This document shows, piece by piece, positions 44,499 through 47,356 of a DNA stretch of 64,000 nucleotides. The translations under genes were made by a program, and so were the position numbers. This DNA is from Bradyrhizobium sp. CB82. Lineage in GTDB: Bacteria > Pseudomonadota > Alphaproteobacteria > Rhizobiales > Xanthobacteraceae. The notes under the pieces were generated by a model, which saw only the letters and a program-made list of their open reading frames with translations, made no database searches and was not told the origin of the DNA. Position 1 is the first letter of the stretch. Each line of letters begins with the position of its first letter. The stretch covers positions 6,887,001 through 6,951,000 of the forward strand of contig NZ_CP121650.1 in assembly GCF_029714405.1 (NCBI RefSeq), in the 5' to 3' direction.

Positions 44499-46664
44499 TC
44501 AATCGACGCCCGCATCCAGCCGGAATGCGTTCTCGACAATTCGTAAACCCACCTCGCCACCGAGCGACATCAGCGACTCCGGGTGGAACTGCACGCCGGC
44601 GACGGGCAGCGTCTTGTGCTCGAGCGCCATGGCGACGCCGTCCTCGGTGCTCGCCGTCACGGATAGAACATCCGGCATGCTGCCCCGTTCAACATACAGC
44701 GAATGGTAGCGGCCGATCACGATCTCGTTCGGCAGATTGCGCATCAGGCGCCCGCCCCGCACCTGCACCCGCGACGGCCGGCCATGGGCGGGATGCGTCA
44801 GTTGCCCGAGCTCACCGCCAAAATATTCGCCGATCGCCTGCACGCCGAGGCAGACGCCAAACACCGGCAGCTTCTTCGCAAGCGCCGCGTCGATGGTCTT
44901 TTTGATCCCGAAGTCTTCGGGACGGCCCGGTCCGGGCGACAGCACCAGCAAATCCCACGTCCTCTGCTTGAGCATGTCAAGCGCATGCACATAGCGGACC
45001 ACGGTGACGCTGGCGCCGACCTGGCGGAAGTAGTCGGCGAGCATGTGCACGAAACTGTCGTCGTGGTCGATCAGCAGCACGTGCTTGCCCGAGCCGGTCG
45101 CATCGGGCGCGAAGGTCGACAGCGGCTTCGGCGGATCGCCGCGCAGCGCCTGGAACAGCGCCGCCGCCTTCACCTGGCACTCGCGGTCTTCCGCGGCCGG
45201 ATCGGAGTCGAACAGGCAGGTCGCGCCGACGCGAACCTCGGCGAGCCCGTCCTTCATGCGGATGGTGCGGATGGTCAGGCCAGTGTTGATGCTGCCGTCG
45301 AAATTCACCGCCCCGATCGCGCCCGCATACCAGCGGCGCGGCGAGCGCTCGTGATCCTCGACGAACTGCATCGCCCAGAGCTTTGGCGCGCCGGTGACGG
45401 TGACGGCCCAGGCATGGGTGAGGAACGCGTCGAGCGCGTCGAAGCCGGGACGCAACATGCCTTCGACGTGATCGACGGTGTGGAAGAGCTTCGAGTAGGT
45501 CTCGATCTGCCGCCGCGCCAGCACCTTGATGGTGCCGGGAACGCAGACGCGCGCCTTGTCGTTGCGATCGACGTCGGTGCACATGTTGAGCTCGAACTCG
45601 TCCTTCTCCGAGTTCAGGAGCTGGCGGATCTGCTCGGCATCGCCGATCGCATCCGTGCCGCGTGCGATCGTGCCCGAGATCGGGCAGGTCTCGACGCGAC
45701 GGCCGTCGGAACGCACGAACATCTCCGGCGAGGCCGACACCAGGAATTCGCCCTCGCCAAGGTTCATCAGCGCGCCGTAGGGCGACGGGTTGATGACGCA
45801 GAGACGCTGGAACACTTCTGCCGGCGAACGCTCGCAGGGCTCGGCGAACAGCTGCCCCGGCACGGCTTCGAAGAGATCGCCGCGGGCAAAGGCGGCGCGC
45901 GCGGTCTCCACTGTGGACTGATATTCGCCGGGCGCGTGATCGGCAAAGCCCTGCCGCGGCGTCTTGAGGTACGGGCTGTCCGCGGTCTCGCGCGGCAGGC
46001 CCTCGGTCGACCGGCCCTCCCAGGTGAAGTCGTAGCTCAGCACCACGCCGCGGCCGGTGGCGCGGTCATAGGCGAGCAGGCGATCGGGCACATAGAGCAC
46101 GATGTCCCGCTGGTCCTTTTCGCGCGCGCGCTTCTGTACGAGGTCCTCGATCTGGAACACGAGGTCATAGGCGAAGGCCCCGAACAGGCCGAGCAGCCCG
46201 TCGTCATTGGCGGAAAAGGCGGCGACGAGATCGCGCACCAGCGACATCACGCTGGCACGCCGGGTGCGCTGATCTTCCTCGACCGGCGCATCGCCGCGGA
46301 TGATGTGGCCGGCAAGGTACGAGGCCGTCTTCTCGGAGATCACCACGCAGGGCTCGCGCAGGACGTCGGCCAGGAAGGTGATCAGCACCTGCCCGCGCTG
46401 GTTCAGCGCTTCGAGCTTGAAATTGACGCCGACGGTTTCCAGCATGAGCGGCGGATCGGAGAAGCCAAGGTCGAAACTCTCGTAGCGGCCGGGCACGGTG
46501 GTGCCCGACGACAGCACCACGCCGCGGCGGCGGTCGAGCAGGCTGACGAGATCGTCGAGCCTGCTGGCGCCGCCGCTAAACTGCTCCGCCACGCGCGTGA
46601 TCGCGAGACCCGCGCGGGTCACAAAGTCGCTTCTGGCCGGGAGGGCAAAGACTGTCCTGTTCAT
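44499..46664 (-). CDS. trpE(G): Fused anthranilate synthase, TrpE-TrpG
   Basis: This single protein makes anthranilate from chorismate and glutamine, the first step to tryptophan. Residues 1-510 are the TrpE domain with LVSASPEMFVRSDGRRVETC, PISGTIARGTDAIGDAEQIR and AWAVTVTGAPKLWAMQFVED. Residues ~525-721 are the glutamine amidotransferase: SPGPGRPEDF, nucleophile Cys605 in GVCLGVQAIG, and His694 with Glu696 in FHPESLM. Such fusions are typical of Rhizobiales. The Trp-responsive leader is at 46767-46875. The start at 46664 fits the family. Confidence 0.97.
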   Translation of the reverse strand: MNRTVFALPARSDFVTRAGLAITRVAEQFSGGASRLDDLVSLLDRRRGVVLSSGTTVPGRYESFDLGFSDPPLMLETVGVNFKLEALNQRGQVLITFLADVLREPCVVISEKTASYLAGHIIRGDAPVEEDQRTRRASVMSLVRDLVAAFSANDDGLLGLFGAFAYDLVFQIEDLVQKRAREKDQRDIVLYVPDRLLAYDRATGRGVVLSYDFTWEGRSTEGLPRETADSPYLKTPRQGFADHAPGEYQSTVETARAAFARGDLFEAVPGQLFAEPCERSPAEVFQRLCVINPSPYGALMNLGEGEFLVSASPEMFVRSDGRRVETCPISGTIARGTDAIGDAEQIRQLLNSEKDEFELNMCTDVDRNDKARVCVPGTIKVLARRQIETYSKLFHTVDHVEGMLRPGFDALDAFLTHAWAVTVTGAPKLWAMQFVEDHERSPRRWYAGAIGAVNFDGSINTGLTIRTIRMKDGLAEVRVGATCLFDSDPAAEDRECQVKAAALFQALRGDPPKPLSTFAPDATGSGKHVLLIDHDDSFVHMLADYFRQVGASVTVVRYVHALDMLKQRTWDLLVLSPGPGRPEDFGIKKTIDAALAKKLPVFGVCLGVQAIGEYFGGELGQLTHPAHGRPSRVQVRGGRLMRNLPNEIVIGRYHSLYVERGSMPDVLSVTASTEDGVAMALEHKTLPVAGVQFHPESLMSLGGEVGLRIVENAFRLDAGVD

Positions 46665-46766
46665 GTGATCCTCTTGGGCTCCTCTTACGAGACTTGCCGA
46701 GGGAACGCCACACAGGACAAACGATCAGGCCGCCGCACTGCGTTGGCGACCTTCGACGATTTAGGG

Positions 46767-46808
46767 AAAAGAAATCGCACCGGCCACCTCTTCAGGAGGT
46801 GCGCCACC
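46767..46808 (-). terminator. trp attenuator hairpins and terminator
   Basis: Leftward, GGTGGCGCACC is followed by CACCTC-CTGAA-GAGGTG, then GGCCGGTGC and the tail GATTTCTTTTCCC. The segments can pair in alternative ways (GGTG with CACC; CACCTC with GAGGTG; GCACC with GGTGC), as in a classical transcription attenuator. The first segment overlaps the Trp codons of the leader. The T-rich tail is at 46767-46774. About 100 bases separate it from trpE(G). Confidence 0.75.
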
Positions 46809-46839
46809 AACGACGGGATGGGCGGACGACGGTGCTCAT
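46792..46839 (-). CDS. trpL: trp leader peptide
   Basis: A 15-codon frame reads MSTVVRPSRRWWRTS and stop, with tandem Trp codons at positions 11-12. It lies directly before and into the attenuator hairpins and about 130 bases before trpE(G). Ribosome stalling at the Trp pair would favour the antiterminator when Trp-tRNA is low. There is no Shine-Dalgarno, and the ATG coincides with the predicted transcript start, so it is probably translated from a leaderless RNA, as described for Sinorhizobium trpL. In that genus the peptide and the small attenuator RNA also act in trans. Confidence 0.8.
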   Translation of the reverse strand: MSTVVRPSRRWWRTS

Positions 46840-46846
46840 GGGGAAC

Positions 46847-46875
46847 TACACACCATGGCGCGGCGGCGGCGTCAA
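46847..46875 (-). promoter_or_regulatory. trp promoter
   Basis: Leftward, TTGACG (46875-46870), 17 bases, then TGTGTA (46852-46847). The -35 matches the consensus well and the -10 weakly. The predicted start, 7-8 bases on, falls at 46839-46840, the A of the leader ATG. Confidence 0.6.
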
Positions 46876-46930
46876 GATGCCATCCACGTGCCATAGCCAG
46901 GATGGAGCTGCGGTATATCCTGGCTATGGA

Positions 46931-47356
46931 TCAATACGCCCCGACCTCATATCCGATCGCCCGAAATCCGTTGTCAGGGACATAGCGGAATTCGAACGTG
47001 AATTCGGAATTCGTGTCGTGCCAGGTCAGCGCGCAGTGGCCTTCGGGCAACGACAGGAGTTTTGCGGTGTGCAGATGCTTGCGCATGAAGGGCGTGAACA
47101 ACGTGTCGAAGCGTTGCAGGAATTCGGCCTCGCTCTTGACCGGGCCGCTCTGAACGTCGTGCTTGCCTTCCCCCGACCAGAACTCGACGGGGAATGAGAT
47201 CAGCTTGACGATGCGGTTCTTGTCGTTCGCATTCGCCGCGCCTTCGAAGTCGTTGCGGAAGGCCTGAAATTCCGGTCCGTTACACACTGGATCCTTGGCC
47301 CAACAGGGCGCCGCAAGGGCGGTCACGAACAATGATGCGATCAGGAAGGCTTTCAT
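46931..47356 (-). CDS. Exported hypothetical protein
   Basis: A 141-residue protein with a Sec signal, MKAFLIASLFVTALAAPCWA, and likely cleavage after CWA. The mature part has two Cys (VCNGPEF, GHCALTW), a charged middle (FPVEFWSGEGKHD) and an aromatic-rich C-terminus (EFTFEFRYVPDNGFRAIGYE). It resembles small periplasmic NTF2-like or DUF proteins but I cannot name the family. The start at 47356 is taken because it opens the signal peptide; 20 upstream codons are unlikely. It lies between the trp leader and the dienelactone hydrolase gene. Confidence 0.75.
   Translation of the reverse strand: MKAFLIASLFVTALAAPCWAKDPVCNGPEFQAFRNDFEGAANANDKNRIVKLISFPVEFWSGEGKHDVQSGPVKSEAEFLQRFDTLFTPFMRKHLHTAKLLSLPEGHCALTWHDTNSEFTFEFRYVPDNGFRAIGYEVGAY

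Follow-up and report, generated by a model that had tools for sequence, protein, structure and literature searches.

Upstream of the fused anthranilate synthase gene trpE(G), the window (the whole 64,000-nucleotide stretch analysed here, C1:6887001-6951000 of a 10.1-Mb genome) contains a short ORF with two adjacent Trp codons, and the locus raises the question of whether trpE(G) is under ribosome-mediated attenuation, where the leader RNA would begin and end, and whether that RNA also acts elsewhere. From conservation and pairing, the locus is very probably a Bradyrhizobium trpL attenuator of trpE(G), of the leaderless type, and it is predicted to release a leader RNA that ends near position 46718. 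A counterpart of this leaderless trp attenuator has already been studied in the genus, and the terminator and RNA length are corrected here; for the Bradyrhizobium trpL leader, a search of the openly licensed literature found no study of its fine structure.

The trpL reading frame and its predicted promoter

Leaders were aligned from 82 genomes, one locus per genome, consisting of 36 genomes of the same genus (that of the window included) and 46 new genomes of the family. The family was represented by 149 genomes, 48 of which carry trpE(G) at E <= 1e-200, and the 46 are the new ones among these. By locus, 41 belong to the same genus and 41 to other genera of the family, giving 81 distinct rows; a paralogous copy (L031), a more distant locus (L032) and distant leaders from other families with two to four consecutive Trp (L033-L036) were left out. 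Further database loci were taken from the best 80 of 355 trpE(G) relatives (78 Bradyrhizobium and 2 Alphaproteobacteria MAGs), among which Bradyrhizobium sp. Ec3.3 (98%) and B. niftali (97%) are the nearest. The features of the locus are collected in Table 1.

Table 1. Features of the trpL-trpE(G) locus in window coordinates
Feature	Position	Strand	Basis or remark
-35 box TTGACG	46870..46875	-	TTGAC in 81/81 loci counted and 80/80 further loci
-10 box TGTGTA	46847..46852	-	17 nt from -35 box, 7 nt from the A of the trpL ATG
trpL, predicted leaderless leader-peptide ORF MSTVVRPSRRWWRTS	46792..46839	-	sequence and alignment
Tandem Trp codons (codons 11 and 12)	46804..46809	-	both TGG; kept in 80/82 aligned loci
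Hairpin 1:2, 5' arm CACCTC	46796..46801	-	helix 97.3% of cells paired
Hairpin 1:2, 3' arm GAGGTG	46785..46790	-	overlaps region 2
Region 2 GGTGGCC, antiterminator outer stem with region 3	46782..46788	-	99.6% of cells paired
Antiterminator inner stem, 5' arm GCGATTT	46772..46778	-	89.8% of cells paired
Antiterminator loop CTTTTCCCT	46763..46771	-	length and sequence variable in alignment
Antiterminator inner stem, 3' arm AAATCGT	46756..46762	-	alignment
Region 3 GGTCGCC, partner of region 2 in the antiterminator or of region 4 in the terminator	46745..46751	-	
Region 4 GGCGGCC, terminator 3' arm	46728..46734	-	
T-rich terminator tail TGATCGTTTG, predicted attenuator RNA 3' end	46718..46727	-	relatives' tails, sub-threshold Rfam match
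trpE(G), fused anthranilate synthase	44499..46664	-	NF010081 1153.5 bits, TIGR01815 989 bits, both over cut-off

The trpL frame runs on the minus strand from an ATG at 46839 to a TGA at 46792 (15 codons), and an in-frame TAG 9 nt 5' of the ATG (46848-46846) means that no longer trpL frame is possible. As in ribosome-mediated trp attenuators (the trpL class), the locus has a leader ORF with regulatory Trp codons: the ORF stands ahead of trpE(G) in every one of the 82 aligned loci, 80 of which have tandem Trp codons, and in each of the 80 further database loci (from the best 80 of 355 relatives, partly overlapping the 82). This bears out the 15-codon leader with tandem Trp codons that the initial annotation had placed before trpE(G). 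The ORF is 14 to 20 residues long among the 82 loci, differing by whole codons, and start, stop, frame and Trp codons are kept, with the first ten codons variable. In two loci of one genus (L056 and L061, genus g44), FWRPTF replaces WWxTx, leaving one Trp codon, and the terminator is intact.

The promoter TTGACG-N17-TGTGTA that had been proposed for trpL is present at 46875-46847, and its TTGAC is conserved at 35, 36, 37 and 38 nt before the ATG in 21, 44, 15 and 1 loci, respectively (81 of 81 counted); the 82nd locus (L066), inspected by eye, carries TTGAC at 36 nt, and in each of the 80 further loci (best 80 of 355 relatives) TTGAC falls inside the interval 40-31 nt upstream. The -10 pattern of the family (81 loci) begins with TG followed by any base; the fourth position is T in 48 loci and G in 24, the fifth is T in 73, and the sixth is T in 39 and A in 36. 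PMC4842269 describes TGnTA as an extended -10 motif upstream of leaderless mRNAs in B. japonicum; the trpL pattern is alike, though not an exact match. The main text of that start-site paper and that of a B. japonicum small-ORF paper (PMC5082802) contain neither trpE nor trpL. These data support a leaderless or near-leaderless trpL, with transcription predicted to start at or near the ATG. A start exactly at the ATG, as first proposed, would fit the promoter geometry conserved in 81 of 81 loci, but the offset of the ATG from the -35 box drifts by 3 nt, and the start may therefore lie a base or two away. Judged from sequence, a trp attenuator with this leaderless-type promoter geometry appears to span the sampled Bradyrhizobium genomes and sister genera.

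Published counterparts and possible action in trans

The leader resembles trpL-trpE(G) of Sinorhizobium meliloti (rnTrpL, peTrpL), which is likewise described in PMC7298713 and PMC10117765 as a leaderless short ORF with consecutive Trp codons and an attenuator RNA. The S. meliloti peptide differs in having 14 residues and three Trp, and the window peptide shows no conservation with it outside the Trp run; PMC7298713 itself says the same of the B. japonicum peptide. Much closer is the peptide Bja-peTrpL, MSTAVAPARLWWRTS, of Bradyrhizobium japonicum / diazoefficiens 110spc4, a strain of the same genus as the nearest relatives of the window: in the form printed in PMC7298713, both peptides have 15 residues, 11 of 15 are identical and the WWRTS end is shared, whereas V4, R6, S8 and R10 of the window peptide correspond to A, A, A and L. 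The exact Bja-peTrpL peptide occurs in none of the 80 loci from the best 80 of 355 relatives.

The initial annotation also held that the locus yields an RNA and a peptide acting in trans, and by analogy with the published B. japonicum counterpart the released RNA and peptide may do so. According to PMC7298713, overproduction from a Bja-rnTrpL plasmid in B. japonicum lowered the mRNA of an smeR homologue and raised tetracycline resistance; this plasmid makes both the RNA and the peptide, and the effects of the two are therefore not separated. Furthermore, a review (PMC7143759) states that control of trpDC by rnTrpL is conserved in Agrobacterium and Bradyrhizobium. If a trans role is real, one short RNA would couple expression of trpE(G) and trpDC, as already proposed in print.

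The trpD gene was found in 52 of 52 genomes searched (24 + 28), and 50 of these were scanned for short duplexes between the leader and the first trpD copy, with second copies left out, as were G177, where the match was partial, and G104. A short-duplex scan of 20 genomes pointed to trpD nt 113-128, and in the genome of the window the best trpD duplex joins leader nt 13-24 with trpD nt 113-125 at -12.6 kcal/mol after opening costs. Pairing of the leader RNA with trpD is thereby suggested at most, and it is against this evidence that attenuation in cis alone has to be weighed, with the released RNA and peptide having no trans function in this strain. That alternative is a real possibility, although we give it clearly less than even weight. 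It agrees with a trpD site that does not stand clearly above background, since 9 of 116 window segments of 1.1 kb score at least as well as trpD and one of these is the leader's own antisense, which leaves 8 of 115 non-self segments; with the weak advantage of the site over synonymous trpD shuffles, which in 40 same-genus genomes were as good on average in 36% of 60; and with the peptide itself, residues 4-8 of which vary from genome to genome. It is opposed by the B. japonicum effects and the trpDC statement cited above, and by the duplex scan of the 50 genomes, which are related to one another: in 22 of them the best duplex begins within trpD nt 105-125, using leader stretches from within nt 5-30, and in 30 trpD outscores the two control flanks, where 16.7 would be expected. 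The proposal of a trans-acting RNA and peptide draws its support only by way of the B. japonicum counterpart.

Alternative leader folds and the predicted site of termination

The anatomy of the leader, its alternative folds and their conservation were established by computation, on a structure derived from the window's own sequence and an alignment whose rows are related. The leader has an antiterminator and a terminator that exclude each other by competing for one shared strand, as is characteristic of the trpL class, and folds with the ribosome at set positions agree mostly, not fully. Hairpin 1:2 and the terminator are paired in 95.5% of cells, compared to at most 60.9% for slid partners, and the antiterminator is paired in 94.8%, compared to at most 64.0%; the outermost terminator pair was omitted from the pairing counts because of gaps. 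In hairpin 1:2 and the terminator, both-sided changes were counted in 42 cells against 19.2 (sd 2.7) in shuffled alignments, a number that none of 500 shuffles reached. By contrast, neither the number of pairs with both-sided changes (2) nor that of pair types exceeded the shuffles, and sliding by -1 gave 3 both-sided pairs but only 8 cells. Among the 81 distinct rows, the last pair of hairpin 1:2 changes from C-G to U-A in 19 and to G-C in 1, and is unpaired in 12; similarly, terminator pair 123/137 changes from C-G to U-A in 22 and is unpaired in 20, many of which are Bradyrhizobium, where the stem seems to be shifted. Compensatory support, as seen in the alignment, is clear for hairpin 1:2 and the terminator. 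For the antiterminator it is weak, and the case is mainly that the stem stays paired: both-sided changes were counted in 6 cells, a number reached in 10 of 500 shuffles and surpassed by a slide of -3 (7 cells). Within the inner stem, three pairs show such changes, in 2, 3 and 1 rows, and the helix of regions 2 and 3 shows none among the aligned rows; 45 of 73 rows leave the inner-stem pair adjoining the loop unpaired. A consensus scan for promoters and terminators returned 0 of each, not above background, and folded as a single sequence the 120 nt leader shows no unusual stability (z -0.62), being equalled by 48 of 200 shuffles; the case therefore rests on comparison.

The predicted terminator is GGTCGCC/GGCGGCC (46751-46745 / 46734-46728) followed by its tail, with an end near 46718 and an attenuator RNA, from 46839, of 122 nt. 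With 6 T among 12 bases the tail makes a poor U-tract, and stronger ones occur in some sister genera; several relatives carry TTTTTCGTTTG and similar at its position, and several other genera have a terminator GGCCGTC...GACGGCC followed by TTTTT(C)GTTTG. Rfam at the gathering threshold gave no match in the entire window. Below that threshold, RF00513 (Trp_leader) was the best of 4227 families on 46600-46950, spanning 46815-46720 and the full model (positions 1-100); the match scores 17.8 bits where gathering requires 41, has an E of 0.39 and falls short of Rfam membership, and its end at 46720 agrees with the terminator end near 46718.

The initial annotation had ended the RNA at 46767, about 50 nt away from the conserved terminator further downstream, on the strength of a T-rich tail, ATTTCTTTT (46775-46767), which turns out to be the end of the antiterminator inner stem and most of its loop. 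It is very unlikely that a GCACC/GGTGC hairpin and this stretch terminate transcription and give an RNA of about 73 nt: a CGCACC/GGTGCG pairing is possible next to the T-rich stretch, but many relatives lack a T-rich sequence there and differ in its length (for example L054, L067 and L071), the flanking GCGATTT/AAATCGT stem is conserved with a few compensatory changes, and the hairpin GGCCGTC/GACGGCC with its T-run is explicit further downstream in several sister genera. A terminator at 46767 was accordingly rejected on the alignment, whose rows do not conserve a T-run in the loop. The boundaries at which the attenuator RNA should be sought in transcriptome data are thus about 46839 to 46718, not 46767. 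Like the rows that break pair 123/137, four loci (L024, L025, L028 and L042) speak against the model: region 4 is longer and altered, the leader is about 13-17 nt longer, and an extra T-rich run (GGTTTGTTTATTTG and similar) lies ahead of the usual one, which amounts to a rebuilt terminator.

In the attenuation mechanism proposed for this downstream terminator, transcription would begin at the trpL ATG or within 1-2 bases of it, and a ribosome would load on the leaderless mRNA. With Trp-tRNA scarce, the ribosome would stall at codons 11-12 and leave region 2 free; region 2 would then take region 3 as the polymerase makes it, no terminator would form, and trpE(G) would be transcribed. When Trp is ample, the ribosome would reach the stop codon and cover region 2, regions 3 and 4 would pair, and termination near 46718 would free a leader RNA of ~120 nt, itself encoding the peptide.

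To follow these states, 81 leaders were folded with the edge of the ribosome set at 11, 14 or 17 nt, counted from the first base of the codon in the A site. A ribosome with its A site on the second Trp codon left region 3 captured upstream in 81 of 81 leaders, compared to 71% in a shuffled-spacer control (mean energy -16.7 kcal/mol for the real leaders, -11.3 for the control). When the A site instead held the stop codon, P for the terminator exceeded 0.5 in 67, 69 and 69 of 81 leaders at the three edges, respectively, the counts of 69 leaving 12 of 81 short of it; a shuffled region 4 paired in 58% (mean energy -11.6 vs -15.3 kcal/mol for the real one). When the ribosome stood at the stop codon and the RNA ended with region 3, region 3 was still paired upstream in 50 of 81 leaders, and therefore just 29 of 81 pass on all three of these counts. 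For the window, upstream pairing in this last state was 0.89 and weak (-5.3 kcal/mol), and it yielded to the terminator (0.99) with region 4 made. Equilibrium folds that included region 4 favored the antiterminator in 48 of 81 leaders for the stalled state and the terminator in 80 of 81 for the stop state; the stalled window leader formed the antiterminator at 0.89, but with one more base folded at 0.35 against 0.62 for the terminator. Because this equilibrium preference is mixed, classical attenuation would need region 3 to be captured co-transcriptionally, before region 4 is made. The claim of a cis attenuator with a leaderless or nearly leaderless trpL is supported, though not proven, by the conservation and by this pairing pattern.

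Folded without a ribosome, the window leader paired region 3 with the Trp-codon region at P 0.74 and formed the terminator at P 0.03, and with one extra end base these values were 0.56 for upstream pairing and 0.32 for the terminator; among the 81 leaders, region 3-ORF pairing exceeded P 0.5 in 21 and the terminator in 40. As a speculation from this model that we regard as unlikely, the leaderless trpL switch may also sense the efficiency of initiation on leaderless mRNA, such that failed initiation would raise trpE(G). In E. coli, failed leader initiation has the opposite effect on attenuation. That the ORF is untranslated and conserved through RNA pairing of the TTGGTGGC stretch alone is barely credible, for although the RNAalifold consensus joins the Trp-codon region to region 3 and the terminator loop by long-range pairing, the 82 loci preserve frame, start, stop and Trp codons despite length changes by whole codons, and the S. 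meliloti counterpart was detected by mass spectrometry and Ribo-seq, according to published work on that system.

The second trpE(G) copy

The genome of the window carries a second fused trpE(G) at C1:8105352-8107508 (L031 2353-4512, plus strand), whose protein is 93% identical. Upstream of this copy there is no trpL-like ORF, but a remnant, GTGCGGCGGCC..., that resembles the distal leader; its start region was found in 3 of 264 other genomes of the genus searched, likewise without a trpL-like ORF. As read from its upstream region, the second copy may represent an anthranilate synthase that has escaped Trp attenuation. Aligned with each other (window 46664-44499, L031 2353-4515), the two trpE(G) copies are identical over a tract of 644 nt that breaks off abruptly, whereas identity per 100 nt drops to 59-84% across the first 200 columns and to 75-82% across the last full 300, a pattern that looks like recent gene conversion between them. 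The same genome also contains further trpE/trpG-like and trpD-like genes, at C1:7681918-7683575 and C1:7611152-7612123, respectively, about 70 kb apart.
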